From a virus, in the IMG/VR virus record IMGVR_UViG_3300020185_000333, positions 1 through 20,083 of that record: a DNA stretch of 20,083 bases; one strand, 5' to 3'. The position numbers were made by a program, and so were the translations under genes. Positions 1-17,845 of the stretch are shown in pieces; positions within the stretch are counted from its first letter, which is position 1; every line of letters begins with the position of its first letter. The notes under the pieces were generated by a model. The model worked only from the letters and a program-made list of their open reading frames with translations, was not told the DNA's origin and searched no databases.

Positions 1-503
1 AGCCTTTGACCAGACATACCCATTAGCGTGCTTACTTTATTTAGTTCTGCGGCTCTTGATTGACCTTCGCCTTGCCTTTCTAATAACTGGTTTTGCGATG
101 CTTGTTGCATTTGAGCAGCTTGATTAGATCTTTCTTGCTGACCTATTGATATACCTGCTCTTTCTGCGTTTTGCGATCCCTGGTTCGCCATGGCTTGAGC
201 TAAAGCAGCAATACCAGATCCTCCGGCTGCGCCTTGCATAGTGTCCATAGTATTAGCCATTGATTGTTGTTGAGCTCTATTAGTAAATTCTGCTTGCTGT
301 TGATTTACAGTAAGATCCTCATATACGTTTTCTAAATTACTATATAAATTTGATGTATCTAAGCCCTCAAATTGACTTTTTCTTGTATCAAATTCAGCTT
401 GAGCAGCTCTTTGCTCTCTTTTTCTTTTGCCAGCTCCAATTAAACCGCTAGCTATGCCTGCGACTCCTTGGACTCCTGACATTATTGCACCCATTGGTAT
501 CAT
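1..503 (-). CDS. Gln/Ala-rich phage virion protein, N-terminal part (runs off window)
   Basis: This reading frame starts at ATG 501-503 and stays open to the window edge, giving 167 codons without a stop. The first ~24 residues are Gly/Ala/Ile-rich and weakly hydrophobic (MIPMGAIMSGVQGVAGIASG), followed by a basic stretch (KRKREQR). The rest is strongly Gln-, Ala- and Glu-rich with almost no aromatic residues, as expected of a long alpha-helical or coiled-coil protein. I recall proteins with this start, including a 'LDTSN.Y.N..NVYEDLTVN' stretch, in uncultured marine phages next to tail genes, without a firm function. The hydrophobic N-terminus, helical body and position after the tail genes would suit an internal or ejected virion protein; that is inference. 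The leader before the ATG is AT-rich with no Shine-Dalgarno motif. Confidence 0.75.
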   Translation of the reverse strand, partial: MIPMGAIMSGVQGVAGIASGLIGAGKRKREQRAAQAEFDTRKSQFEGLDTSNLYSNLENVYEDLTVNQQQAEFTNRAQQQSMANTMDTMQGAAGGSGIAALAQAMANQGSQNAERAGISIGQQERSNQAAQMQQASQNQLLERQGEGQSRAAELNKVSTLMGMSGQR

Positions 504-534
504 ATTCTATTACTTTATATATTATTATTACATG

Positions 535-861
535 TTATTTGCTACTCTCAAATATCTCTGATCCTACAGAAAATAATTCAATTTTTTCAGTAGAGTCGTT
601 TTTAAAAGTTGTTTCCATATAGTAACCCTTTAAGCCACTTGTATTTGCTAAATTAGTTTTGCTAAATAGAATAAAAGATGTCAGAGTAGGTCTAATAGTG
701 CTACTAGGTATTTGAGCTGTGATAGTATTTGCTCCTATATTTGTTATGATGCCTATTTGCACAATTTCTCTACCATTAAGATCATCTGTGTAATAAGCTG
801 TATCTCCAATTTGTACTGAAACATTAAGTGGCATGGGGAATTCTAGGGTTATTTCGTCCAT
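535..861 (-). CDS. Small phage structural protein, function unknown (108 aa)
   Basis: A 108-residue protein lying 16 bp downstream of the Ig-like appendage gene. The N-terminal half has alternating beta-type sequence with a 'VSVQIGDTAYYTDD' stretch and a later 'ITNIGANTITAQI' strand, reminiscent of a small beta-barrel. The C-terminus ends in 'IELFSVGSEIFESSK'. I recall very similar small proteins, with 'VGDTAYYT' near the start and 'FESSK' at the end, beside structural genes of uncultured marine phages, but know no function. There is no signal peptide, membrane segment or catalytic motif. Its place between appendage and virion genes suggests a minor virion or assembly component. The leader is an A-rich run (AAAAAATAAAAATAAACT) ending at the ATG. 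Confidence 0.8.
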   Translation of the reverse strand: MDEITLEFPMPLNVSVQIGDTAYYTDDLNGREIVQIGIITNIGANTITAQIPSSTIRPTLTSFILFSKTNLANTSGLKGYYMETTFKNDSTEKIELFSVGSEIFESSK

Positions 862-877
862 AGTTTATTTTTATTTT

Positions 878-2683
878 TTATGGTGTTATATTTTCGTCAC
901 AATTTGAATCTGGGCAGCATAGTCTAAGCGTTGTCCACTGCGTGCTGACGTCGTGAGGCGCGGTAACTCTAAGTATAGCAGTATTGCTTACGGCATAATC
1001 TGCTGAATCATACAACCACCAAAGTACTTGTTGATAATCTGTGCCACCAACACTCATTGAGGGTACGTCATAAAGTCCTTGTGTTGCTGATTCAAATTCT
1101 ACTTGTCTTGTAGGTGGGTTGGTGTCCGCGGCTATGAACTGCGGCACTGCATCAGCTTGGACTTCAGTTGGGAAAACTCCCCCGTTTGGATTTGCATCAC
1201 CAGTGTTTGGTGCGCTAACAGCAGGAGGTAAAGGATTTGAGTTCGATGTACCGTAAAGGTTATCAAATGGCCCAGAATTCCCACTAGCGGTTGAACCTGA
1301 TGTCGCTTTCTTATTAGCTATTATAGTGGTTCCGAAAGTTGGGTCTGCAGCTCCATGGAATATTTCAAATTTATCTGGATAAGTTGTAGATCCATAAACA
1401 AGGAAAGCTAACAACCCTCCATTAGGGTTTAATTCAATTTCAACATCCTGTATTCCTGATCCGCCAGCTTCAACTATTGATCCACACTCAACAAGGTTGG
1501 TAGTTAAAAATTCAACAACTTGACCATATCCAGTTCCAAGTGAATTAGTTGCGTAGGCTCTAACATAGTAGTATGTGTCTTTTGATAATCCTGTAATATT
1601 ACTAGTAAAATCTGAATTGCCTGAGCCTTCGTTTGTTGAACCAGCAATAGTATCAAAAGTAGATGTTTCACTCCATTCTACTCCTTTTTGTGTAATTGGT
1701 AAAGTTGGTAAAATATTATAACCACCAGAATCAGCGGTGGTGTTAGTAATATTTGTTACTTCTGTTGTTTGCAAAACAGGAACATCCGCGGCTTGTGATA
1801 CAGTGAAAGGGTTTTGTTGAGGAAAAGGACTTATTAAATCCCCTGTTAATGTGAATGTATAATCTACTCCAAATCCTAAAGGTATATTTATATCTAAAAA
1901 ATCTTGCCCACCAGAAGGCACTACGCTGCTGTAAGTGCTTGGTGTTGCTCCATTGTTAACCGTTAAGGTCCAGTTTGCGCCTTGCGTGCCAAATACACTA
2001 AACCTTCTAGTTTCGCCGTCTGAGCTAAATTCGCTATTTAAAAAAGAATATGACCGTATTTGTATAGGTGCTTGTGTTGGTAAAGCTACTGCAGAAGCGT
2101 TTATAGATATTAAATCCCCCGACACGTTAGCCGACGGAAAATTATATTGTGCTGTAAAAGATATGCTAGTTAGATTACTGTTAGTGTCATAAGTTTTAGT
2201 ATTGCTTATAGTGTAATTATTAGGATCACCAACAGAAACCACGCATGTTGGTGTATTTAAAAAGTAATAATCAGTGTCTGCTGTAAAAGTAGCATTTGTA
2301 AATATGTTAGAAACACTACCGTAAATTCCTTCTCTATTTATTGTTGCAGGAGGTAAGCTAGCGGATGCGTTTAATACGCTATAATTATAATCTACTTGCA
2401 AGGTAAAAACAATTAAATCCGAACGCCCCTGCATACATATAGGAATAGCTAAATCGCCAACAACAGGGGTTGAATCAAATTCAACTGTCATTGAAACATT
2501 GTCGCCTGATTGCGTAAAATATATATTAGACACTGGGCTGCTTATAGTTGCCGAGAAATTATTTGCATCTAAAAAATATCCTGCGTTTGGGGTTAATGTT
2601 AATACTGTATTAGGGATTTCTTCCCCAGTTGATATTTGCCAATTAACCTCTGACACTGTAAAATTATCAATTGATGTGCTCAT
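878..2683 (-). CDS. Multi-domain Ig/FN3-like appendage protein (601 aa), probable receptor binding
   Basis: A 601-residue beta-rich protein made of successive Ig-like modules. Residues ~1-95 and ~100-200 look like two diverged copies of one module: each has a strand ending in a '.YFL' motif and closes with a V(G/S)GDL stretch. Residues ~205-298 (GETRRFSVFGTQGANWTLTV) resemble a BACON-type domain, which is tentative. Residues ~301-396 match the FN3-like domain common in Bacteroidota surface proteins (TTEVTNIT, GVEWSE, FTSNITGLSKDTYYYVRAYATNS). The C-terminal third is Gly/Asn/Pro-rich and ends with a Cys-rich tail (LCCPDSNC). The gene follows the muzzle-type gene by 22 bp. I infer a tail appendage or fibre that binds a host surface glycan or protein. 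The domains are visible in sequence; the receptor role is inference. Confidence 0.82.
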   Translation of the reverse strand: MSTSIDNFTVSEVNWQISTGEEIPNTVLTLTPNAGYFLDANNFSATISSPVSNIYFTQSGDNVSMTVEFDSTPVVGDLAIPICMQGRSDLIVFTLQVDYNYSVLNASASLPPATINREGIYGSVSNIFTNATFTADTDYYFLNTPTCVVSVGDPNNYTISNTKTYDTNSNLTSISFTAQYNFPSANVSGDLISINASAVALPTQAPIQIRSYSFLNSEFSSDGETRRFSVFGTQGANWTLTVNNGATPSTYSSVVPSGGQDFLDINIPLGFGVDYTFTLTGDLISPFPQQNPFTVSQAADVPVLQTTEVTNITNTTADSGGYNILPTLPITQKGVEWSETSTFDTIAGSTNEGSGNSDFTSNITGLSKDTYYYVRAYATNSLGTGYGQVVEFLTTNLVECGSIVEAGGSGIQDVEIELNPNGGLLAFLVYGSTTYPDKFEIFHGAADPTFGTTIIANKKATSGSTASGNSGPFDNLYGTSNSNPLPPAVSAPNTGDANPNGGVFPTEVQADAVPQFIAADTNPPTRQVEFESATQGLYDVPSMSVGGTDYQQVLWWLYDSADYAVSNTAILRVTAPHDVSTQWTTLRLCCPDSNCDENITP

Positions 2684-2705
2684 GATTTTTATTTATATTT
2701 ATTTT

Positions 2706-5700
2706 TTATGGACAATCTACAACTTCTTGAACTACAGAGCTGCCTCCGTTAAATCTATAAAGAGTTCCGATTCCATCTCCACGCCAACTATCACTAGCGG
2801 GTGAAATTGGGAATTTTCCCTCAGAGTCCACGTATAAAGTATCTCCCGCCACAGGAAGCAAGCTTAACCCGTTGTGATATCTAGTATAAGTGATGTTCCC
2901 ACTTAAATAGTCACAAGCACAAGCTTCTTGACAAATGGATCCTTCAACCCTTGAAACAGACGTATTAGTTAAAGGAAATGCAGTCAGAGGCGGTGCAGAA
3001 AAACACGAAGGATCTGCAAATACTCTTACATTAAACACGCTCACGCCCTCACCTTCTATAGAGGAGGCTCTTCCTATTCCTTGTACTGAAAAATCTTCTG
3101 TGCTAATGTTGTAAAGTGTAGTGTTTTCACCTTTTATATAATTAAAGTATTTACCTTCTTTATTTATAAACTCAGGTATTGAACCTTTTTCTAAATTGGT
3201 TTCAGCGTTATACACCCACCATCCAGGGTTTACGTCTACGCTTGTTGGGTTTGGCCCTCCGCTTGATTTTATAGCCTCAATTTGAGCTATAGAGTAATCA
3301 ACACCAGTGTAGCCAGGTAAATCTATACTATACACATTTTCTCTAGACTTGCTACCATTATAGTTAATTGTCTTAAAACCTTTTACTGAATTAAATTCTT
3401 CGTTAAAAAGAAAAGTTAAAGAGCTATCGTATTGAACGCCGTAGAAATTATTATACAAATTATTTTTACCATGCTCATATATTAAACCATCTTTAAAAGA
3501 GTATAGCTTAGTATTTATTGATATTCCATTCTCAGGTGTATATGATTTTCTACTAGACCAGCCGTTAGAAGATTCATCGAAAGAAATAGTAGTAGATTTT
3601 CCAAACTTACTAGCCCACTGAGAAGCTTGTTCAGACAATGTTAAATTATAAGTACCTGTACTATTGTCGTAAAAGCCAAATACATTTTTATTTAAAGGTA
3701 AATTGTCTTGGAAAAAATCATCCATTCCGTAATTACTTATCTCTGTGACACCGTCGTTAGATAACCTAAGAACCTTGCCTTTAGCGTTGTCAGTAAAATA
3801 TACTCTATACGCGTAACTAGCAAACGATTCAGGGTTTTTACCAATTCCAAACATACCAAACGATGCTGGTATGAGCGCTTGGCCTAAAACATTTGTAGAA
3901 GCTGTTAACTGTGGGTTGCCATCAGCATTGTATATAGCGTCTTTATCTGCTAAAATCTTTACAACTTTATCTTCACAAAAAGCTAATAAATCTGTTTCTC
4001 TAGCAAACATTTTTTGAACAGGTCCGCTTTGAGGATCTAAAGTTTTAGTTATTGCTTCAGCTTGTATAAATTGATTTAAATTGTTTAACCCAGAAGTAGT
4101 ATTAAATATACCTGAAAATATTAAGGTATTAGTTAAGTTTTCTTCCTTATACGGTTCATCTAAAACTGTATTAGCTTTTGTACCTGTGCTTATGTAAGGC
4201 GCGTTAAAATCATCTCTAATTCTATTTGACTCAACACCGTTTCCAAAAGAATAACAATTAAACCAAGCGCTTTCGTGTTGATTATTGAATTGAGATATAG
4301 GTATAGCGTTAGATATTTCGTAATAAATGTCTAAATCAGCTCTTTCGGTTGGTTCTGTTTCAAAAATAGCAGGTTCAGAGGATGAAATCTCTATAACGTC
4401 TGCTGGTTTCAATACGTCAATAGTTACAAAAGCATCTGTATTAGGTGCTACGAATGGAGGAAAACCACTAGCCCCTACAAAAACTTGATTACCATTCACA
4501 AAAACCGGGCCGTTGCCATTATCTTGAGAAGCTCTAAATATTTGCCAAGGAGATATTGAGGCCTCCAGCGGTCTATCTAGTCTAGTATAATATCTTATGT
4601 AAGAACTGCCGCTGGTTTGAGTAAACTGGTGAAGATACTTTATTTCATAAACTGAATCTGGGTGCGTAGAAAATCTTATTTTAGCACCTGTCTTATAGGC
4701 TTTTTGAAAGTTAGCAGAGCCTCGACCTGTTAATTTTCTTTCAAAAACAAAATCCCAATACTCCCCAGGCTGATATGGAATATTCCAGATACTTCCATAA
4801 TTACCACTATTATTAGGGTGGCCAGAATTAAGACCTCCATACACTTTGCTAGTGTTAAAATCTAATCTAGTTCCAGAGCCAATTTGCGCTCCCGACTCGT
4901 TTTGAAGAGGTCCTCCACCCCCTGAAAAAATTGTGTATCGATCAACGTCGTAACTCCTACCCACTACAGTTGTCTCTAAAGGTATTAACTCTTCATCAGA
5001 CACGAAGTTGTCTATCAATGTAGGTGTTTTTTGTAGTCTTATAAAAAATCTTCCTTCGAATTGGCCTTTACCTAAAGTTTCAACTTCATCTGAAATTTCT
5101 ATAGTATTAGCTTCAGGTGATACCAGTGGAGAAGCTGGATTAGAAGGGTCTGTATATAAAAAATCTATATCTGTTGTAAAAGGTGTAGATATTGAAACCC
5201 TAAGTTCGTTAACCCCTCCTGGATCTTGCTCTACTTGAGATATTTCATAATATTGACTTCTATTGATACCATCTGTAAAACGTATTTTATTACCCGTAAT
5301 CCAGTATTCCATATCTTGAGCGCTCACGCCATCGTTACCAGCGCTTCCTTCAATTAAGAAAACACTGTAACCAGCAACTGGAGTAGCTCCTGGTTGACGC
5401 GTCTCTTGAACATTACCTGAACCAAACTGCTGATCAAATGTGTAATTAGTAGTATATATAGCTTGATTCTTTTTAACAAGCTCAGCTGGCGCTTCATTTT
5501 TTTTTGATAAAATTTTAAATTTATTGTTAGGATAATCTTTTACCGCTATATTAGCACCGTCTTTTTTCTTTAAAACAATAAAGTCTCCTTCTTTAACTTT
5601 GTTAGTTTCTGCAGAAGGAACTGAAACCCAGACGCTTTCACCGTCTTCAGATAGGTACAAGCGATCTGCTATTACATTGTAATACTCAGCGGACGGGTCT

Positions 5701-6656
5701 TTTATGAAAATTTTAAAGCTATCAAACATTTCAGAACCGTCAATATTCTTTGGACTAGGTGATTCAATTTTTAGCTTTAAATTATTTGCGGTATCAGAAA
5801 CATCAGCTAGCAAAGGAATTACTCCAGTTGTATCAGTAAAAACAGGTGTTTCTCTTCCGTATGTATCTTTGAACACAACTCCTAATTGGTAAGTTCTTAA
5901 AGACTTAATAGACTTATTAGGACTTCCAACTAAGCTAATAGGTATCTGGTTAACCAGCGTGTTAGCGGTGTCAAATTTTAAATTAGGTGGCACGTTGTAG
6001 TTTTGAAGATAATTACCGTATATTATTCTATTAGATATAGCTTCTTGAGCCTTTGCTTTCCGTGGCACATTATCCCAGGGTCTTAATAGTTGGTTTGAAG
6101 GTAGAAGCGAATATATAAGCTCGCTTACTACTTCAAAAACAGTGCCTAAATCAATACTAGTTATAGTAACACCTGGCTCAGAAGAAGGAGATAAAGAGCC
6201 TTCAGCAGCTATTAAGGTTACAGTTTGTGTAGAAAAGGCAGATATTTCTTGTTCATTTTTCTTAGTATTAATAAAAGAAAACGTTACAGTGTTGGCGGTA
6301 TTGTTTGTTATAGTGTGTTCTACATAGTTTATTTCAAGATCACTAGGAGATAAAGTGTCTACCTTGTAAACAGCCGTAGCGCTGTCTTGCTTGTATAGAA
6401 TATCAAGCTCTACCACGTCTGCTGGTATAGGCGAATCAAAATCCCCTAAAACAATTCTTCTAACGTGGTTTGTCATTCCTAAATTATAGCCATTAGACGC
6501 GGTATATTCAAATTCACCAGGCAAGAACGCTACTTCAGAAAAAGGAGAAAAAGGGGAGTATTGATTATTTTGGTATTTATACCTATAAGCAAACCTAGGC
6601 AACCCTAGTTCAAAAAGGGGAGTATTGATTATTTTGGTATTTATACCTATAAGCAA
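2706..6656 (-). CDS. Giant muzzle/tail stabilisation-type protein, C-terminal part of a split gene
   Basis: This 1316-codon frame holds about four fifths of one very large virion protein. Its first 13 residues (MLIGINTKIINTP) come from a duplicated segment read in the wrong frame and are probably not native. Authentic sequence begins at LFELGLPRFAYRYKYQ, which also ends the neighbouring frame. Deleting one 64-bp repeat unit joins the two frames into one 1625-residue protein. The body is beta-rich with long Ser/Asn/Gly-rich stretches and propeller-like parts (residues ~860-1130), and ends with a Cys cluster (CQEACACDY) and DCP at the C-terminus. In crAss-like and related marine podoviruses, proteins with an 'RFAYRYKY...YSPFSPFSEVAF' segment form the tail muzzle or stabilisation structure; I use this by recalled resemblance. 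Expected role: the distal part of the short tail. Confidence 0.8.
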   Translation of the reverse strand: MLIGINTKIINTPLFELGLPRFAYRYKYQNNQYSPFSPFSEVAFLPGEFEYTASNGYNLGMTNHVRRIVLGDFDSPIPADVVELDILYKQDSATAVYKVDTLSPSDLEINYVEHTITNNTANTVTFSFINTKKNEQEISAFSTQTVTLIAAEGSLSPSSEPGVTITSIDLGTVFEVVSELIYSLLPSNQLLRPWDNVPRKAKAQEAISNRIIYGNYLQNYNVPPNLKFDTANTLVNQIPISLVGSPNKSIKSLRTYQLGVVFKDTYGRETPVFTDTTGVIPLLADVSDTANNLKLKIESPSPKNIDGSEMFDSFKIFIKDPSAEYYNVIADRLYLSEDGESVWVSVPSAETNKVKEGDFIVLKKKDGANIAVKDYPNNKFKILSKKNEAPAELVKKNQAIYTTNYTFDQQFGSGNVQETRQPGATPVAGYSVFLIEGSAGNDGVSAQDMEYWITGNKIRFTDGINRSQYYEISQVEQDPGGVNELRVSISTPFTTDIDFLYTDPSNPASPLVSPEANTIEISDEVETLGKGQFEGRFFIRLQKTPTLIDNFVSDEELIPLETTVVGRSYDVDRYTIFSGGGGPLQNESGAQIGSGTRLDFNTSKVYGGLNSGHPNNSGNYGSIWNIPYQPGEYWDFVFERKLTGRGSANFQKAYKTGAKIRFSTHPDSVYEIKYLHQFTQTSGSSYIRYYTRLDRPLEASISPWQIFRASQDNGNGPVFVNGNQVFVGASGFPPFVAPNTDAFVTIDVLKPADVIEISSSEPAIFETEPTERADLDIYYEISNAIPISQFNNQHESAWFNCYSFGNGVESNRIRDDFNAPYISTGTKANTVLDEPYKEENLTNTLIFSGIFNTTSGLNNLNQFIQAEAITKTLDPQSGPVQKMFARETDLLAFCEDKVVKILADKDAIYNADGNPQLTASTNVLGQALIPASFGMFGIGKNPESFASYAYRVYFTDNAKGKVLRLSNDGVTEISNYGMDDFFQDNLPLNKNVFGFYDNSTGTYNLTLSEQASQWASKFGKSTTISFDESSNGWSSRKSYTPENGISINTKLYSFKDGLIYEHGKNNLYNNFYGVQYDSSLTFLFNEEFNSVKGFKTINYNGSKSRENVYSIDLPGYTGVDYSIAQIEAIKSSGGPNPTSVDVNPGWWVYNAETNLEKGSIPEFINKEGKYFNYIKGENTTLYNISTEDFSVQGIGRASSIEGEGVSVFNVRVFADPSCFSAPPLTAFPLTNTSVSRVEGSICQEACACDYLSGNITYTRYHNGLSLLPVAGDTLYVDSEGKFPISPASDSWRGDGIGTLYRFNGGSSVVQEVVDCP

Positions 6657-6681
6657 ACCTAGGCAACCCTAGTTCAAAAAG
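6548..6681. repeat. 64-bp tandem duplication (two overlapping exact 70-bp copies) breaking the muzzle gene
   Basis: Positions 6548-6617 are identical, base for base, to 6612-6681, so a 64-bp unit occurs twice in tandem. AAAAAG stands at 6548-6553, 6612-6617 and 6676-6681, at both ends and at the junction, which is the expected microhomology for replication slippage. As 64 is not a multiple of three, the duplication shifts the frame, creates a TGA at the junction (6610-6612) and splits a 1625-codon gene. Removing one unit restores one continuous frame. It may be a real mutation or an assembly error. Confidence 0.93.
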
Positions 6682-7647
6682 AGTTTTCTGTCCTGCTGTT
6701 TCAACCTCGTAGTCAAATGAGCCTGAAATCAACTCAGCGGTTCCGCTTTGCAACACACCATTAGCAACAGTACCGCCTAAATCCATAGACGTAACGCTTA
6801 TAGTAAAAGTATAAGTATCTAAATTTCCTTCATCATCTACAGGTTCATAGCCTTCACTGCTAGCGGTGCTACATGAAAAGGTTAAAGTTTTTCCTGATTC
6901 AACGTTTATAGGAGAGCTTAAGTTTATAGAGACAGAAGTGCCAATTTCTATTGCATCACCTAAAGCTCCTGATGCGGTAGTCCCATCTGTAAAGTCATAT
7001 ACAGCGTTAGTTGAAGTAGGCCCAAGCCCTAAATCAGTACTTAAAGTTAACGAAGGTTGTTTTAAAGGAGCTGGCTTAATAACTACTATATCTCTTTCAA
7101 CAAAATCTCTGTTATATATGACAGAGTGAGTAGCAAAGTTTGGTGTAGAGTTTGACCAAGTTTTTATATTTAGTGTTTTAGGTTCTTTTTGGTTATCTGT
7201 CCAAAATAGTAAGTCTTCTATTATGTTTATACCCGTTATCAAATAATCTTTAGAAAAATTGAGTATACCTTGTGTGTCAACTAAAATAGGTTTTATTAAA
7301 TCGCTATTCTTGTCGTATTCAGCGATGGCACTTATATTTTCAGAAGCTATAAACCAATATATTTTTTCGCTAACATTATTAGCTATGGACCCTATACAAG
7401 TAGGATTTACCATCGCATCGGCTATGTAGCCAGCTGACCACTCGGTGTATACGCCTGTAGATTCGTTAAAAGATTCATATTTTAATTCTAAGTTTCCTTT
7501 AATGTTTTCAATAGCCCCAAGATCACTTCCTTCTGAATTAGATATATTGATATTCAAAGCATCTCTATACTCTCCATTCGGAACTAAACGTTCGTCAAGG
7601 TCTTGGTTCATTTTACCCTTGATAAAATTACGAATAAACTCTGGCAT
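6610..7647 (-). CDS. Giant muzzle/tail stabilisation-type protein, N-terminal part of a split gene
   Basis: This 345-codon frame opens with a diagnostic motif at residues ~8-32 (FIKGKMNQDLDERLVPNGEY, RDALN), which I recall at the N-terminus of large tail stabilisation or muzzle proteins in uncultured marine and crAss-like phages. Residues ~40-200 are beta-rich with propeller-like repeats. Residues ~205-325 look like an inserted Ig-like domain (Ser/Thr/Gly-rich, acidic). The frame then reaches LFELGLPRFAYRYKYQ and stops at a TGA created exactly where two tandem copies of a 64-bp unit meet. The full-length protein would continue in the overlapping downstream frame. The ATG lies 3 bp after the stop of the preceding ring-protein gene, so translation is probably coupled. 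If the duplication is real, this product would be a truncated and likely non-functional fragment. Confidence 0.78.
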   Translation of the reverse strand: MPEFIRNFIKGKMNQDLDERLVPNGEYRDALNINISNSEGSDLGAIENIKGNLELKYESFNESTGVYTEWSAGYIADAMVNPTCIGSIANNVSEKIYWFIASENISAIAEYDKNSDLIKPILVDTQGILNFSKDYLITGINIIEDLLFWTDNQKEPKTLNIKTWSNSTPNFATHSVIYNRDFVERDIVVIKPAPLKQPSLTLSTDLGLGPTSTNAVYDFTDGTTASGALGDAIEIGTSVSINLSSPINVESGKTLTFSCSTASSEGYEPVDDEGNLDTYTFTISVTSMDLGGTVANGVLQSGTAELISGSFDYEVETAGQKTLFELGLPRFAYRYKYQNNQYSPF

Positions 7648-7650
7648 ATG

Positions 7651-8541
7651 TTAGTGTTTTATTTGCTTAGACTTACCTCTCATTACTTGAGTGATTTCCT
7701 CTAGTTTTATATTTGATAATCTTAACTTAGCATTTCTCTTTGCAACAGCCGCCTCTCTTTTAAATCTAGATACTATGTATTCTGGAACGTTAATTCTTGT
7801 TGCTAAGATAGCGTGTGCGATGTATTTATACATAGCTTCCTCAGCTAGTTTATGAACAATCATTTCTCCATCGGTTGCTAACCCATCGCTTATGTATTTT
7901 AATGTAACTATGCGACCTACCATGTCAGAGCTAAACCTTATTAAGCCTTTTATTTGATCTATAAAGAAAACACCATTTGATTGAGCGTATTGAGGGTCTA
8001 GTCCATATCTTTCACCATTAACTCTTCTGTGAAGTTGGCCTTCTAAGCTATCTTGTGAGTTACGAGGATTGCTAAATCGTTTCCAAGTTTCAGAATCTTG
8101 AGCGTATAATATCTCACCGTCTTCATCAAAAGTATACTCATAGCTACTATCCTGTATGATAGGTAGGGGGTCGCTTGTTTTATGGGCAGGGTATATGACT
8201 CTTTCAATACCGTCTTTATCTGTCCACGTTACTTTCACGTAGTTTACATAGTCTTGTGGTAACACAAAATATAGTTGAGAAGATATTTCAATCTCTTGAG
8301 ATTTAAAAGAAGGTAGAGTATCAAAGCTTAATTCTTGTATTCCTCGCTGAGCATGAAAAGCAACATCAGTTCTTTTTATTTTACTTATGATTTTATCTTC
8401 TCCAACATATGAAATTATAAAGTTATTTACAATATCTTTTAAAGAAATAGACTGATAGTCGCCGTAGTTTTCGTCTAGACTATTCCAAATCCCATCAGGA
8501 CCTAAGTAGTAGTCTTCGTTTGTTTGATTTATAAGTCCCAT
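7651..8541 (-). CDS. Head-tail connector/ring-type protein (296 aa)
   Basis: A 296-residue soluble protein without signal peptide or membrane segment. The N-terminal part has an acidic, aromatic stretch (NQTNEDYYLGPDGIW), then a helical region (KIKRTDVAFHAQRGIQELS) and beta-strand pairs typical of phage adaptors (YFVLPQDYVNYVKVTW). The C-terminal ~70 residues are helical and basic (HKLAEEAMYKYIAHAI, later RFKREAAVAKRNAKLRLS). The 'ARRGIQELS...LP.DYV....V' pattern, length and position between capsid and muzzle resemble P22 gp4-like or ring proteins described for crAss-like phages. I infer that it assembles under the portal as part of the connector or tail. It lies 3 bp from each neighbouring gene, so coupled translation is likely. 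The alternative is another tail adaptor class; the structural role is fairly secure, the exact ring is not. Confidence 0.82.
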   Translation of the reverse strand: MGLINQTNEDYYLGPDGIWNSLDENYGDYQSISLKDIVNNFIISYVGEDKIISKIKRTDVAFHAQRGIQELSFDTLPSFKSQEIEISSQLYFVLPQDYVNYVKVTWTDKDGIERVIYPAHKTSDPLPIIQDSSYEYTFDEDGEILYAQDSETWKRFSNPRNSQDSLEGQLHRRVNGERYGLDPQYAQSNGVFFIDQIKGLIRFSSDMVGRIVTLKYISDGLATDGEMIVHKLAEEAMYKYIAHAILATRINVPEYIVSRFKREAAVAKRNAKLRLSNIKLEEITQVMRGKSKQIKH

Positions 8542-8544
8542 TTA

Positions 8545-9276
8545 TTAAGATTTTTCTTGTTGGATAGTTTCTATTTCTTCTTGATTAGCAACGTTATATA
8601 GGTTATAGTCTTTAACTAGTAAACCTGACAGCTCTAGTATTTTTGTAACTAACTCAACTTCTTCTGAAGGGTGCAGCTCGAAGTCTACAGAGTATGTTGA
8701 ATCATATAAAGCCTCACCAAGCACCATTTGGTATTTCCATTCTACTTTAGCTGGCTTCTTTATATATTGAAACTCTACTTCAGTAACATCCGTTATTTCA
8801 TTGTTACCGTAAACCCTGATTCCGCTTGTATTTGATACAAACACAGGTCTAATATTTTTTGGTTTTGTTAATGGAGATGAATTTATGTATAAAAATTCAT
8901 TAGCATTAATGCGCTCCGCTTCGATGCTTTCTGTAGATGCCACACCAAAGGTATTTGTAGTTGTATTTTTATATACTACTGTTCCTAATCTATATAGATC
9001 AGTTGGCTCGTCAAAAAAGCTTCCTGTACGAGTTGGCGCAGCCGTAGTTTCAAATACATTAATTTTTTCATTCAATATATTAAGCATATCAGAATACTCT
9101 GTGCTATTACCAGGCATTCTACCGAACTGATTTATATCATAAAAGTATTGCTCAAAAAGATCTAGCTGTGCTTGATTAGCAAATAAATTAAACTCTTGAG
9201 CTGTGACGTACCCACGTTGTTCTTTATTAAGTATACCTAAAACTTTCTGATATACAGTATCTATGCTTACCGCCAT
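8545..9276 (-). CDS. Head-tail connector/ring-type protein (243 aa)
   Basis: A 243-residue protein beginning MAVSIDTVYQKVLGILNKEQ, with a helical segment RGYVTAQEFNLFANQAQLDLFEQYFYDINQF. I recall this start ('NKEQRGY.T..EFN.FANQAQ...FE.YFYD.NQF') in many uncultured marine phages beside the 296-aa-type adaptor. The middle is beta-rich (FDEPTDLYRLGTVVYKN, later VEFQYIKKPAKVEW) and the C-terminus is helical and acidic. It is the upstream partner of the 296-aa gene with a 3-bp gap, and I infer that the two form adjacent rings joining portal and muzzle. The first codons lie at the edge of the 185-bp duplication, so a second copy of its ATG and GCG exists at 9456-9461 but leads to no useful frame. 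The leader is AT-rich (AATAAATTTACAACAAT). Confidence 0.82.
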   Translation of the reverse strand: MAVSIDTVYQKVLGILNKEQRGYVTAQEFNLFANQAQLDLFEQYFYDINQFGRMPGNSTEYSDMLNILNEKINVFETTAAPTRTGSFFDEPTDLYRLGTVVYKNTTTNTFGVASTESIEAERINANEFLYINSSPLTKPKNIRPVFVSNTSGIRVYGNNEITDVTEVEFQYIKKPAKVEWKYQMVLGEALYDSTYSVDFELHPSEEVELVTKILELSGLLVKDYNLYNVANQEEIETIQQEKS

Positions 9277-9296
9277 ATTGTTGTAAATTTATTATT

Positions 9297-9337
9297 TATA
9301 GTAATTAGGCCACCATTACAGCGGCCTAGCTACTATA
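9297..9337 (-). terminator. Stem-loop, left copy (possible terminator or processing site)
   Basis: TATAGTA at 9297-9303 pairs with TACTATA at 9331-9337, and TAGGCC pairs with GGCCTA inside it, giving arms of about 15 bp with a two-base internal mismatch and an ~11-nt loop. It lies between the remnant of the 276-aa gene and the 243-aa gene. The minus-strand downstream sequence is AT-rich but has no clean T-run, so weak termination or RNA processing are both possible. Confidence 0.5.
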
Positions 9338-9346
9338 ATTAGTGAC

Positions 9347-9456
9347 TTATAGTCTTTTAATTAAATGCTTGTAAACTTCCATACCATCATCCGTTTTAAA
9401 GAATGCAGCTAATGCTGAATATGGATGTTCATCAAAAGGAACTGTCATTAATTTCC
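9347..9456 (-). pseudogene. Duplicated 3' remnant of the 276-aa head protein gene
   Basis: This stretch encodes the last ~35 codons of the gene at 9532-10362, through its TAA at 9347-9349. The upstream part is missing, so it is a fragment made by the 185-bp duplication. An internal ATG at 9446-9448 could in principle start a 33-residue peptide (MTVPFDEHPYSAL...), with no sign that it is used. Its encoded protein is identical to the parent C-terminus. Confidence 0.85.
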
Positions 9457-9481
9457 GCCATATTGTTGTAAATTTATTATT

Positions 9482-9522
9482 TATAGTAATTAGGCCACCA
9501 TTACAGCGGCCTAGCTACTATA
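9482..9522 (-). terminator. Stem-loop after the 276-aa gene, right copy (possible terminator)
   Basis: This is the identical partner of the stem-loop at 9297-9337, placed 10 bp past the stop codon of the 276-aa gene, so it is the copy in the natural position for that gene's 3' end. The arms carry the GC-rich core GGCC/GGCC. It has no strong T-run, which makes a partial terminator or mRNA-stabilising hairpin as likely as a full stop. Confidence 0.52.
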
Positions 9523-9531
9523 ATTAGTGAC

Positions 9532-10362
9532 TTATAGTCTTTTAATTAAATGTTTGTAAACTTCCATACCATCATCTGTTTTAAAGAATGCAGCTAATGC
9601 TGAATATGGATGTTCATCAAAAGGAACTGTCATTAATTTCCTTTTTGTTTCACCAAATGTAAATGTTCTTTGATCTGGTGATAATTGTATAATACCTGCT
9701 TGTGTAGCTTTAATACCTATGTTTCTAAGCTCTACATTTTCATCGTTAGCTAATTCTATAAATAAATAAGGATTTCTTTTAGCAAATATAATTAAGTCTC
9801 TTTTTAACTCTGAGCTACTTAATGTATCTACTTTATTTCCATATTCAACTCTTAAAATACTTTCTGCTTGATTTATGTCAAGTTCTCTAGCTAATGTTAA
9901 CGCGTCAATTTCCATGTTTATGTACTCTAGTTCGTCAACAGATTCTTGCACTGGATTATACTCTGTATATAGTTGATCTTTTAAAGGGTGATATAGAGAT
10001 AGTATTTTTTGTAAATTTTGCATCTCTTTTGGAACTGTCAAAGCTCCATCCCTAAAGATAATACGACCTAATGTAGCCGTTCCCTGTTGCTCTTCTACAA
10101 AGGGTGAGTTTTGGTTTGTAGCATACCTTATTTCTTTTTGTTCTCCAGTTTCTGGGTTAAACCATAACAAAGGTCTAACAGCTGAGTGTTTTGCTGGTAG
10201 TGTAAAAATAACAGGTTTTTTATTGCCTTTTAATAGATATAATCTATCTTTAATTTCCCAGCTTGGTTTAACTGGTGTTTTTTGAACTGGTGCAGTTTTT
10301 GCACTAGTTGGCTGAGGTGCAACCTCAACAGTTTCTTCTGCTTTTGTAGCTTTTTTAGCCAT
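9532..10362 (-). CDS. Phage head-associated protein, function unknown (276 aa)
   Basis: A 276-residue protein encoded directly after the capsid gene. Residues 1-35 are Lys/Ala/Pro/Thr-rich and probably disordered. Residues ~36-110 are beta-rich (EIKDRLYLLKGNKKPVIFTL, later RPLLWFNPETGEQKEIRY). Residues ~110-200 are helical and acidic (LEYINMEIDALTLAREL). The C-terminal part ends FFKTDDGMEVYKHLIKRL. There is no signal peptide or membrane helix. I do not recognise a named family; similar proteins follow the capsid gene in marine podovirus genomes as I recall. Position suggests a capsid decoration, completion or internal head protein. It is separated from the capsid gene by two stem-loops, so it may be expressed less. 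Its last ~35 codons are duplicated downstream. Confidence 0.8.
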   Translation of the reverse strand: MAKKATKAEETVEVAPQPTSAKTAPVQKTPVKPSWEIKDRLYLLKGNKKPVIFTLPAKHSAVRPLLWFNPETGEQKEIRYATNQNSPFVEEQQGTATLGRIIFRDGALTVPKEMQNLQKILSLYHPLKDQLYTEYNPVQESVDELEYINMEIDALTLARELDINQAESILRVEYGNKVDTLSSSELKRDLIIFAKRNPYLFIELANDENVELRNIGIKATQAGIIQLSPDQRTFTFGETKRKLMTVPFDEHPYSALAAFFKTDDGMEVYKHLIKRL

Positions 10363-11994: not shown

Positions 11995-13173
11995 TTATTT
12001 TCTAATTTTTACTCTTAATTTAGAAGAATCAACACCATTTACAGATCGCACAGTCCAGCCATTAGGAGCCGTTGTATTTTCATGAACCCCTCTCGGATCC
12101 ATATTAACGTTCTTTGTTTTAGCCATACTGTCTTTTATCGCATCAGCCTTGCCTTGCTCATAAAAGTGTTTTGCTACTGCATCAGGATTCATAGCTGTGA
12201 ATAGAGATTTATGATAACCAGAAGCGTCAGACATTTCGTTTTTTTCATTCAAGAACTTCTTGATAAAATTATTAATGTCGCTTTGGTTTGTTTTAACCTC
12301 TTCCGCATTTTTAACATTGAACCTATATTTCTTGTCTCCAACTTGATAATCAAAACCTTTGAAATCATTATTGAAAACTTTATTAGTTCTTTCTAAAAAC
12401 ACATTTTTTTGATTCTTAGCTAATTCAGTTGTTTCCTCTTGTTCTTTATTATATCGGTTAAAGAACTCAACCGCTTTTTGTTGTTCTGGATTTAATTTTG
12501 ATCCAGCTTTAATTTCTTCGTAGTATTTAGACTTTAAACCATCTAAGTGGTTTTTAGCCTTAGCTAACTCTTCTTTGTGAGCTATTTTCTTTTTACGTAT
12601 ATCTCTTTCTTCGTCAATATCCTCGTCGTATGCAAAATTGTCTTCCATTAAAAAGTCAATCTCTTCTTTATCAAGATGAGGTCTAGTGTTTTCGTAGTAC
12701 TCTCTTAGCAACTGAGTTTCATTTAGCGCAGAGTAATCAGTGTTAAGTTTTACATAATCCTCTAAACTTCCGCCAGTGTCATTCATAAAGTCAACGGCTT
12801 TCTGTATGTTTTCAGGTAAATCAACACCTTTACTTTCTTGCTCAGCTACGGCTTCTGCAATATCTTCAGTTAGCTGTTCTGTTTGCTCTTCAACCTCTTC
12901 TTCAGTTATTTCCTCAAGAACTGGTTGTTCATTTTGAACTGACTCTTTTTGCTGTGGTACTTCTTCAACCACTTCTTCGCTAGCTTCCACTGGTTCATTA
13001 GCATCCACTACTTTTTGTTCTTCAGCGGTATCTTCTTGCGTTTTGTTTAACTCTGTTAAGTCTACCTTAATTACCCCGTCTTCATAAGACATAGGGGATT
13101 TTTCTTCTGTTGTAGGTGTTTCTTCCACTTTAACTTCTTCCTGTGGAACACCTTCTTGTAATTGTTCTTCCAT
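11995..13173 (-). CDS. Scaffold-like head assembly protein (392 aa)
   Basis: A 392-residue protein between portal and capsid, the usual place of a scaffolding gene. Residues 1-~118 are extremely Glu/Val/Thr/Gln-rich and acidic (EEITEEEVEEQTEQLTEDI) and probably disordered. Residues ~125-300 are charged helices or coiled coils (DEERDIRKKKIAHKEELAKA and onwards). The C-terminus is basic and ends SSKLRVKIRK. An acidic helical protein with a basic C-terminal tail fits capsid scaffolds, whose C-terminal helix contacts the capsid protein. I see no protease motif, and no separate prohead protease gene is present in the window. The leader is AT-rich (ATTATATAATATTTTATC). The scaffold role is inferred from composition and position. 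Confidence 0.78.
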   Translation of the reverse strand: MEEQLQEGVPQEEVKVEETPTTEEKSPMSYEDGVIKVDLTELNKTQEDTAEEQKVVDANEPVEASEEVVEEVPQQKESVQNEQPVLEEITEEEVEEQTEQLTEDIAEAVAEQESKGVDLPENIQKAVDFMNDTGGSLEDYVKLNTDYSALNETQLLREYYENTRPHLDKEEIDFLMEDNFAYDEDIDEERDIRKKKIAHKEELAKAKNHLDGLKSKYYEEIKAGSKLNPEQQKAVEFFNRYNKEQEETTELAKNQKNVFLERTNKVFNNDFKGFDYQVGDKKYRFNVKNAEEVKTNQSDINNFIKKFLNEKNEMSDASGYHKSLFTAMNPDAVAKHFYEQGKADAIKDSMAKTKNVNMDPRGVHENTTAPNGWTVRSVNGVDSSKLRVKIRK

Positions 13174-13205
13174 GATAAAATATTATATAATTATTATTAC
13201 TATTA

Positions 13206-15632
13206 TTACCTAGGCTCGAAAGAACCTAAGTCAAATCCACCACCTAATATATCATTACCTGCAGATTCAAAGTTTTTAGGCGGTGTGTTGTTTTTTCTTT
13301 GATTAATTAACTCGCTTTGTTGAGTTCCCTGCATTTTTACTCTTTGATCTTTTCTATCTTCTTTTTCAGATTCATCATTAGCCGCTTTGTTTGCATCTAT
13401 ATCTCTAATCTGCATGTTGTATTGGAACTCAAGTTGCATTAACTGCATTTTAGACTGTACTTCCAATTGCATTTTTCTTTCATCAAGTTGAGATTCTATT
13501 TGCATAAGCTGTGCTTTTTGCTCTGTAATAACTTGATTCTTTTGTATTTCAGCTTGAGCGGCAACTTGCTGTGCTTGAGCATTAGCCTGAGCTTGAGCTT
13601 GAATGTTCTGCTGCTGCATAGCTTGATCTCTCTGAAGTTTCTTTTTTCTTCTAATCTTCAGTACTTGATTAGCTAACTTTATGTTTCTTATTTCTCTAAT
13701 ATCTATAGCGTCTTCTAAATCAATTAACCCTGCAGATAAAGCTGTTTGAATATTGTTTTCTAACATTTGCTTTTCTTCATCATCAGGCGTAAGCTCTAAA
13801 AATATACCAAAATCGTATAAATGAAGATCCCCCATTTCTTGGAGAGTCGCTACGTTGTGTCCACCTATTTTTTGTATAAACGCATCTCTAGTTGGAGAAT
13901 ACTCTAATACATCTGAAACTCTCAATGATAGACACTCCGCTAAGTCGGCAGTTAAAAATAAACCAGCTGTAAGTATGTGTCTTGTAGCTGTGTTTGAATT
14001 TGCTGCTGCAATCTTTTGTATACCAACTAACGCTTTAGAATCCGGTGTTGATCCATCTCTAGCTTCATTCAATCCAGTCGTATCTCTTATCATTTGCAGA
14101 TAATAGTTATACGTTTGAATTAAAGATGCCATTTTATTTCCACCAGCACCACTAGTTATTTCTTGAATAGGTACTTTGCCAGGGTTCATATCCCCTTCCT
14201 GTGTAAATGACCTACCAATCACAGAACCTGTTTGGAAAAACATATTCAATGCTTCCTGCGGGTTGTAATTAGTACCGTTACCTAAATCAATTTCAGCTAA
14301 ACCGTCAGCATCAAGATAAACACCGTCTGGTACCATTCTTGATAATACTTGCTGTAGCTTTAAATGCGTAAGTTGAATCATATCTGCAAACCCTGTTATA
14401 CGGCTTACTAAAGATTCAATTTTACCTTTATACATTCTTGGGGCTACAATGCTGTAGTTCATTTTAACTTTAGTATGATCGCTTTTAGGTCGCATCATAT
14501 TTTTAGCTAATTCCCATTGAAGTAAATAATCAGTACCTAATATAAGTACACCTTCATATAACACTTCTAAGGACCTAGATAATTTTCCGAACTGTTCTTC
14601 AAGCATCTCAACAGGTGGATCAAACTGATCGTCTCTGAGCACTACCTTTGAAGCCCCAGTAGCAGTTTCTTTAACCTTGTAAACCTCATTCATGTAAGTT
14701 TTGAAGTTAAAATATAAAACTTGCACTGTATTAACATCTGGACTTGCAGAGTTATTTAAAGGGCGATCATAATAACTGTTGCTTTGATACGATGTCTTAG
14801 ATATCCTTTCCAAATCTTCATTTGTTAAATTTGGAAATTGTTTTTTAATTTCGTTTATAGTAACATCTTTAACTTCGCCTACATAATATATGTCTTGAAA
14901 ATTAGGATCTTCTGTATAGGAATAAACTAAATTAGCAGGATCTACATATTCCACCATAATACCTTCTGATAGTGTAAATCTATTTTTTACAGCACCAATA
15001 CCTATAGTAGTTAAATCATAATAAAAACGCTTTTTAGTTAAATCGTAATTATTGCCATCAAGCAAAGTGTTTATTGCTTGCTCTTCGGCTATTTCTACAG
15101 CTTGCTTATATGTAAGCTGCATATGGACTTCTAGTTCTTCACGTGTTTCAGGTAAATCCTCTTCAGGGTTTTCAAATAACGCAATATTAAAGTTCTCTTG
15201 TACAAAATTGCTAAGGTCTTTTGTGTACATATCTCTAAGTACACTCTCCATATATTCCGTTCTTTTGCTAACACCATACGGATCTTGTGAATATGCTTTT
15301 ATATCAAAGGCTCTTTCTGATATCCCATTAACTACTATATCAACAAATTTTGGTATAATAGGTACAGGCTTCCAGTCTAAGTTTAGATAAGATAAATCAC
15401 CATTAATAGATAATTCATCTTTATACTTCTGTATTGGCTGTTCACCTCTAGCGTATAACCTTAACTTATGAAACGTATGTTGGTTGCTTCGATATCTATT
15501 AGTACCAGAATCTAATTGAAACCATTCATCTTGAATAGCTCTACCAACCTTAAGCCCATACTCAGGTGACATTTTTTCAGCATCACTAGCTACTTGACTA
15601 GGAAAAGTACTTTTTACAATTGACTCAGCCAT
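13206..15632 (-). CDS. Portal protein (808 aa)
   Basis: An 808-residue protein directly downstream of the large terminase with a 2-bp gap, the usual portal position. The N-terminal part (MSPEYGLKVGRAIQDEWFQL, later FHKLRLYARGEQPIQKYKDE) and the stretch PIIPKFVDIVVNGISERAF match portal-type proteins of crAss-like and marine podoviruses as I recall them. The middle has the ring core (VEYVDPANLVYSY), a region around GLNEARDGSTPDSKALVGIQ, and helices that would form the stem and clip. From residue ~666 to ~775 there is a long Gln/Ala-rich coiled-coil tail (QAQAQANAQAQQVAAQAEIQ), then a flexible Gly-rich end. The protein would form the dodecameric DNA channel at one capsid vertex and dock the terminase. 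The length is large for portals generally but usual for this group. Confidence 0.88.
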   Translation of the reverse strand: MAESIVKSTFPSQVASDAEKMSPEYGLKVGRAIQDEWFQLDSGTNRYRSNQHTFHKLRLYARGEQPIQKYKDELSINGDLSYLNLDWKPVPIIPKFVDIVVNGISERAFDIKAYSQDPYGVSKRTEYMESVLRDMYTKDLSNFVQENFNIALFENPEEDLPETREELEVHMQLTYKQAVEIAEEQAINTLLDGNNYDLTKKRFYYDLTTIGIGAVKNRFTLSEGIMVEYVDPANLVYSYTEDPNFQDIYYVGEVKDVTINEIKKQFPNLTNEDLERISKTSYQSNSYYDRPLNNSASPDVNTVQVLYFNFKTYMNEVYKVKETATGASKVVLRDDQFDPPVEMLEEQFGKLSRSLEVLYEGVLILGTDYLLQWELAKNMMRPKSDHTKVKMNYSIVAPRMYKGKIESLVSRITGFADMIQLTHLKLQQVLSRMVPDGVYLDADGLAEIDLGNGTNYNPQEALNMFFQTGSVIGRSFTQEGDMNPGKVPIQEITSGAGGNKMASLIQTYNYYLQMIRDTTGLNEARDGSTPDSKALVGIQKIAAANSNTATRHILTAGLFLTADLAECLSLRVSDVLEYSPTRDAFIQKIGGHNVATLQEMGDLHLYDFGIFLELTPDDEEKQMLENNIQTALSAGLIDLEDAIDIREIRNIKLANQVLKIRRKKKLQRDQAMQQQNIQAQAQANAQAQQVAAQAEIQKNQVITEQKAQLMQIESQLDERKMQLEVQSKMQLMQLEFQYNMQIRDIDANKAANDESEKEDRKDQRVKMQGTQQSELINQRKNNTPPKNFESAGNDILGGGFDLGSFEPR

Positions 15633-15634
15633 AT

Positions 15635-17845
15635 TTATTTTATTATTTTTGAAATTGAATCGCCGTTACTGTATTTAGCGATGCTTAAGTTTAATTTTCT
15701 TTTTTGCATAATCGGGTTAGGTCTATATAAGTTTTTATTACAAGCCATTATAGCTAGTCCTGAACTAATAGCTGCATCATACTTTGTTCTATTATTTATA
15801 TCAAATTTAGCCCAATCATTTAATGTTTCACTAAAATATAAATCCCCATAATTGCCATCTTCTTTCAGTCCAACATGCTTATCTATATAGGACTCAATAG
15901 CTGCAGCGTGAGCTTGTTTTATATCTTCGCTTGAATTTGGTATACCACCTATTTCTTTTTCTGCTGTAGATAATTTATTCCAAAGTTTATCAGGTCTATT
16001 CATTGAATATCCTCTATAACCTCTTCTTTTAAAATAATACAACAATCTAGGTTTATTATTTTCTGCTAGTAATGGCATACCGTAAAATATGCACGCCATA
16101 AGCACATCTTCAAAAAATATTTCAGCAGTTTGAGGTCTTGCAATGTATTCTAGAAAAAAAGTATTAGGTGGAGCATCTTCCATACTAAACTTTGTTAAAC
16201 CGTGCAAAGCACCTTTTGAACCATTACCACCAACTGTTCCGGATATATCATAGCTATCACATCCAAACGCACCCATATGTTCATTACCTGGGTATTTCAT
16301 TCCGTTTTTTATAACTTGCCTGTTTTGGATATCATAACTAGGAACCCAAGTTATTTTAAATCTTCCTTGCTGATTTGGAGTAAATAAAACTTTTGAATCT
16401 TTTATTCCATTCTCCCAGCTAAAGTTACCAGTACTCACTACACTTGTGTTTCGTAAATCTTGGTTATAATCAATTTGTTCGTATATTTTTGCTAAATTAA
16501 ATAAGCTACTCTTAGTTTCGTCTCTAAACGCATGCTCTTCTGTACGTGGAAATTGTCTGTAAAATTCATTTAAAGCATCCTGATCGCTTTTTAAACCTTC
16601 AGCTTCGTTATTCCAATGCTCAACAATTCCAATCTCTATAGGGTCTCCATATGGCCCTAAAACTTCTTCTGCTGGCGTATCAAATACAGGATGTCCGTAT
16701 TCATCAATAAAACCCTCATAATTCCATTCCATTGGAATAAATAAAGAATATAAACCTGATTTGGTTTGACCATTCTTATTTCTTTTGGTAACATCAGAAG
16801 CGTAATAAAGCTTTTTAAAGTTTTCACCCCCTTTGTCTAAAGCGTTTGATGTTGACCCCATCATACACTTACCTATAATTCTAGCTCCTAAACGTAAACA
16901 CGTTTTAGTTACACGCCAGTTATTTAATATATTGTCTGGTCTTTCCCATTTTCCACTTTCATCGTGTACTAGTAGTTTTAATTTCTCACCATCATAAGAG
17001 TTGTCACCAGTGTTTTTCCAGTCAATAGTTGTGTCTAACCCTTCTAATATTTCGTCATTTTGTTTGTTCTGTATAGACTTTCTCGTAAGTCTTGATGCGG
17101 GTATTCTATAAGCTAATTCTGTTTTTGGACGATCCATACCGTCTTGTATTGGCTTAAAGAAAAAAGGGTAGTTGACTGATATTGGTACTACTTTGTCTGT
17201 AAACATTTTTTTAGCATCAGACCCTGACTTTGATAATATACCAAATCTTGCATCACTTGATATTGTAGCAAGGTTTACCGTTTCACCTGACGCCATAAAA
17301 GAAAATCCGGAACGCCTGTTCTTAAGATAGGCCATACCGTAGCATCTGGAATCCGCTTTACACGCTTCCCAGAATATAAAAAATAATCTATTGGCTTCTC
17401 TAAATTCAGGCTGGCCGACGTCAATTTTAGACCATTGCAAGTACATAAAGTGAGTACCAGTAATGTAAGTAGCCAAACCCTTATTATTGAACCAATGCCC
17501 TTCTTCACGGCGTTTAAATTGTTCATCTATATATGGTTCCCATTTATTTTGGAATTCTTCAGGATAGTCTCTCCAATCGAATACACTTTGTATTTGCTTT
17601 AATTCTTTTGGATAATCTTCAACTGTCCATTTATCATTTGTTTTGTCTATTTTAGAAGGAGCTTTTGGAAGAGCTATTCTAAAACCTTGTATTTCGTATA
17701 TCTCACCTATTTGCCCAGTCTTGCTTATTACAACAATGTCATGTTCCTTGTTATATCCATACTTCCATTTCTTAGCTTTATTAAGCCTAGATATAGTCGT
17801 AAGTTTTATAGGTTCAACAATTTTATATAAAGTCTGCTCGTACAT
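15635..17845 (-). CDS. terL: Terminase large subunit (736 aa)
   Basis: The DNA-packaging motor: an N-terminal ATPase that drives DNA into the prohead and a C-terminal RNase H-like nuclease that cuts it. A Walker A of the lambda gpA type, with its lysine at the front (KNRRSGFS, residues 175-182), is followed by a Walker B (LLVHDE, 291-296) and a probable coupling motif (MMGSTSN, 328-334). The nuclease part has a GAFGCDSYD motif (D530, D533), an acidic second motif (around E577-E595) and a likely third acid at D690 (KYDAAISSGLAIM). The first ~115 residues form an extra N-terminal domain. The start codon overlaps the stop of the upstream small gene as TAATG, so translation is coupled. The assignment is strong by motifs and by gene order before the portal. 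Confidence 0.92.
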   Translation of the reverse strand: MYEQTLYKIVEPIKLTTISRLNKAKKWKYGYNKEHDIVVISKTGQIGEIYEIQGFRIALPKAPSKIDKTNDKWTVEDYPKELKQIQSVFDWRDYPEEFQNKWEPYIDEQFKRREEGHWFNNKGLATYITGTHFMYLQWSKIDVGQPEFREANRLFFIFWEACKADSRCYGMAYLKNRRSGFSFMASGETVNLATISSDARFGILSKSGSDAKKMFTDKVVPISVNYPFFFKPIQDGMDRPKTELAYRIPASRLTRKSIQNKQNDEILEGLDTTIDWKNTGDNSYDGEKLKLLVHDESGKWERPDNILNNWRVTKTCLRLGARIIGKCMMGSTSNALDKGGENFKKLYYASDVTKRNKNGQTKSGLYSLFIPMEWNYEGFIDEYGHPVFDTPAEEVLGPYGDPIEIGIVEHWNNEAEGLKSDQDALNEFYRQFPRTEEHAFRDETKSSLFNLAKIYEQIDYNQDLRNTSVVSTGNFSWENGIKDSKVLFTPNQQGRFKITWVPSYDIQNRQVIKNGMKYPGNEHMGAFGCDSYDISGTVGGNGSKGALHGLTKFSMEDAPPNTFFLEYIARPQTAEIFFEDVLMACIFYGMPLLAENNKPRLLYYFKRRGYRGYSMNRPDKLWNKLSTAEKEIGGIPNSSEDIKQAHAAAIESYIDKHVGLKEDGNYGDLYFSETLNDWAKFDINNRTKYDAAISSGLAIMACNKNLYRPNPIMQKRKLNLSIAKYSNGDSISKIIK

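Follow-up and report, generated by a model that had tools for sequence, protein, structure and literature searches.

In an uncultured crAss-like phage, a 64-bp head-to-tail duplication at 6548-6681 breaks the gene for the muzzle protein into two open reading frames, and we consider it probable (about 75%), judging from sequence comparison, that this duplication is an artefact of assembly. In the real phage the unit most likely occurs once and the muzzle gene is whole. The window, by which we mean the whole stretch of DNA analysed, is a virus record of 20083 bases; its ends are classed after IMG/VR, and its contig contains no N gaps.

A frame-breaking repeat in the muzzle gene

The two exact 70-bp copies of period 64 described in the initial annotation were confirmed. 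The copies, at 6548-6617 and 6612-6681, are 100% identical and have AAAAAG in common, the hexamer standing, as had been described, at both outer ends of the 64-bp duplication and at its junction. Because the repeat is exact over 70 bp, a chance origin is excluded. The gene lies on the minus strand, where the extra unit shifts the reading frame and turns one gene into the two ORFs listed here.

6548..6617, no strand: first 70-bp copy (unit 6548-6611 plus AAAAAG 6612-6617)
6612..6681, no strand: second 70-bp copy (unit 6612-6675 plus AAAAAG 6676-6681)
6610..6612, minus strand: TGA stop made at the junction; the coding strand reads TCC CCT TTT TGA ACT
6610..7647, minus strand: N-terminal part of the muzzle gene, 345 aa (Pfam PF25731 crAss_MUZ, residues 7-168)
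2706..6656, minus strand: C-terminal part of the muzzle gene, 1316 aa, with a TTG start inside the repeat (Pfam PF25729 crAss_MUZ_C; PHROG 14478)

The upstream ORF terminates at the junction TGA (6612-6610) and the downstream ORF begins at a TTG within the repeat, which confirms both the frameshift with its new stop and the false start that had been ascribed to the duplication.

The assignment to the muzzle family, also made in the initial annotation, is supported by curated family models matched above their cut-offs. The N-terminal piece scored 44.5 bits against PF25731 (cut-off 27) and the C-terminal piece 34.3 bits against PF25729 (cut-off 27), a model that all 18 of the aligned relatives match as well. 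In PHROG 14478 the two pieces hit collinear parts of a single profile. The tail tip of PhicrAss001 is gated by a hexamer of the muzzle protein, which is strongly conserved across crassviruses (PMC10172136). By Pfam and PHROG the broken gene belongs to the same family as that protein (gp44 of PhicrAss001), and like the crassvirus muzzle gene it sits within a cluster of genes for the head and tail. It differs in having no sequence or profile match in the PDB, despite the deposited PhicrAss001 virion structures; neither phmmer nor a profile search found a match to a solved muzzle chain there. Megablast of the window against annotated phages found no match, and the protein search of annotated phages returned only distant Cellulophaga, Flavobacterium, Tenacibaculum and Maribacter phages and one unclassified record. 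Among annotated phages, the closest are those of aquatic Bacteroidota, for example of Cellulophaga and Flavobacterium. At its C-terminal end (window 2694-3008) the muzzle gene gave no DNA-level alignment with two relatives, L008 and L009, in which most of the rest aligns, and this appears to be a variable end.

The 64-bp unit in related genomes

The nearest relative, IMGVR_UViG_3300025809_000217, is represented by two loci, L002 and L006. This relative aligns with the window without gaps at 96.6% identity over 1-6617 and 98.7% over 6612-9456, and both L006 and the other closest relative, L007, have the 64-bp unit once. In L006 the muzzle gene is one ORF of 1625 aa plus stop that aligns gap-free on either side of the repeat, which is the single intact frame that had been expected once one unit is removed. 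The relatives thus have intact the gene that the duplication was said to split: the reading frame is unbroken through the repeat site in 55 related contigs, a count that leaves out L014, L022, L029 and L042, where the match or the contig ends before passing the unit. Among the 18 full-length relatives that we aligned, the unit is single in all 18, and its translation (FELGLPRFAYRYKYQNNQYSPF in L006) is among the best conserved stretches of the muzzle protein. The comparison with related genomes proposed in the initial annotation therefore gave one unit in every relative examined.

Beyond these relatives, a degenerate pattern for the duplicated junction, checked on the window, had 0 matches elsewhere in 2.9 million viral contigs, in a scan that may omit records very close to the window. 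As a control, the corresponding single-copy pattern recovered five muzzle relatives among its matches in viral contigs. A false duplication should be absent from close relatives, and this is what we found in L006, L007 and the others examined, with no such junction in the viral contigs. We also looked for a shift in identity at the 64-bp junction as a sign of chimerism and saw none, divergence from L006 being similar on the two sides (1.10% versus 1.35%). The two units are identical and, likewise, the window and L006 do not differ anywhere between 6482 and 6990.

A second duplication and a mosaic of strains

A second unit, of 185 bp, is repeated head to tail at 9267-9636 (period 185, 98% match), about 2.6 kb from the 64-bp duplication; the initial annotation is silent on it.

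9267..9451, no strand: copy 1 of the 185-bp duplication, equal to L006 at both differing synonymous sites
9452..9636, no strand: copy 2 of the 185-bp duplication, with the other variant (T, T) at 9553 and 9577, synonymous third codon positions

Between the copies there are two differences, 9368/9553 and 9392/9577, each a synonymous third position in the gene ending at 9532, and one more at the edge. The duplication falls between two virion genes; it doubles the 3' end of the first and the beginning of the second, and leaves both intact. The segment is present once in L006, and its duplicated junction had 0 matches in other viral contigs. These differences, at two sites only, suggest strain polymorphisms rather than decay after duplication, as if the haplotypes of two strains had been set one behind the other. 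Haplotype differences between copies are thus two, both synonymous, in the 185-bp duplication and none in the 64-bp copies, where the local strain sequences are also identical. Nearby, the segment 6892-8598 of another locus, L019, matches window 9113-9278 twice, about 1.4 kb apart, which suggests that L019 has an additional copy of the beginning of the virion gene at window 8545-9276 (PHROG 14543).

Further along, window 12600-14000 diverges by 13% from L006 and from L007, whereas these two differ from each other by only 2.9%. The phage population is a mosaic of strains. Across window 12600-17843 divergence rises to about 13% against both closest relatives, by recombination or in a strain-chimeric contig. 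The fall in identity to L006 right of 9452 might be blamed on the 185-bp junction; most of it comes from beyond about 12600.

Non-triplet repeats of this kind are unusual. The same scan of 118 other loci (1.53 Mb) found other exact head-to-tail repeats, of which only that in L047 (period 35) is not a multiple of three; the window has two such non-triplet duplications within 20 kb. Two duplications in 20 kb against one in 1.53 Mb suggests a cause specific to this contig. The L047 repeat (15206-15277) is an exact, frame-breaking 35-bp tandem duplication downstream of the muzzle gene, and it is absent from L040, L048, L049 and L053, all of whose alignments show a 35-column gap. It probably arose in a similar way, whether as an artefact or as a mutation.

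Origin of the duplication

Of the three readings that the initial annotation left side by side, assembly error is the best supported, and we favour it because the neighbouring duplication has strain-specific copies and the relatives examined are all single-copy. The contig would then combine fragments from different strains that co-occurred in one phage population, and at two places a fragment would have overlapped the start of the following one with its end, by about 70 bp and about 190 bp. If the joining step had then used a very short terminal overlap (AAAAAG in one case, CC in the other), or had set the fragments end to end instead of using the full overlap, the overlap would be written out twice, breaking the muzzle gene at 6548-6681 and harming neither gene at 9267-9636. 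SPAdes scaffolding has a setting that accepts overlaps of about six bases, and a joiner of that kind would also give the AAAAAG junction. False duplications from divergent haplotypes, some of them adjoining the original copy, have been documented as a type of assembly error (PMC9516828). As proposed for the window, such heterotype duplications place divergent haplotypes side by side and falsely break or extend genes, and better assemblies have one copy (PMC9516828). The documented cases differ in concerning diploid animals, long stretches and gaps (PMC9516828), whereas the window is a phage metagenome contig with duplications of 64 and 185 bp and no gap. Three observations stand against an artefact: the two 64-bp units are identical and show no strain switch at their junction, the AAAAAG homology fits slippage, and the contig has no N gaps.

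The main competitor, which we regard as unlikely but by some way the most credible of the alternatives, is a recent slipped-strand duplication between AAAAAG sites (CTTTTT on the coding strand) 64 bp apart, a loss-of-function event of no regulatory role that a minority or defective phage genome, or a product of library amplification, carried into the assembly. The captured lethal mutant of the initial annotation falls under this reading and is likewise unlikely. The substrate for it exists, as the AAAAAG pair at 64-bp spacing is already in single-copy L006. A 6-bp homology is what replication slippage predicts and is rare by chance (0.4% of positions), the identical copies fit a very recent event, and the repeat in L047, lacking in its relatives, is a comparable case. 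However, such a mutant would have little or no viability, and a phage with no intact muzzle protein is not expected to reach the majority that a consensus contig normally represents, although a low-coverage contig might show it. Slippage also leaves the strain-mixed duplication 2.6 kb away unexplained.

We find it highly improbable that the duplication is real and either acts as an on/off toggle of the muzzle protein or is overcome in translation by +1 slippage at TTT TGA, and each of these two possibilities is fainter still when taken singly. In the former, gain and loss of the 64-bp unit would constitute a reversible switch (phase variation). The window does share with slipped-strand mispairing and phase-variable repeats its direct repeats, the short homology and a unit that is not a multiple of three, and slippage or recombination could bring a direct repeat back to a single unit. 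Yet a switch should show both states in the population or among close relatives, whereas two 64-bp units occur in one contig only, the relatives vary in no way in length and only one-unit forms were found outside the window. The switch, one of the earlier readings, therefore has no support, no other viral contig matching the two-unit junction pattern in a scan that may omit records very close to the window. The unit moreover lies in a highly conserved part of the protein, and the off state would be a virion with no tail gate. In the latter possibility, +1 frameshifting at CCT TTT TGA A (tRNA-Phe moving from TTT to TTT) would make the duplication tolerable, at the price of a 21-residue internal repeat. 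A slip at TCC CCT TTT TGA ACT would keep perfect pairing and enter the downstream frame. Release factor 2 genes have a +1 site of the stop-codon type, together with an upstream element, and the window junction resembles that type. But this possibility too lacks support: the site is created by the duplication alone and is found in no relative, whereas a programmed site should be conserved and have stimulatory elements; no Shine-Dalgarno-like AGGGGG lies upstream of the junction; and the 21 extra residues would be inserted where the protein is highly conserved.

It would, if true, be surprising to find an essential tail gate under an on/off switch. The case instead calls for caution. In contigs of uncultured phages, a short exact tandem duplication can interrupt a conserved gene and look like phase variation or recoding, and a further duplication in the same contig whose copies are strain-specific is a helpful warning.
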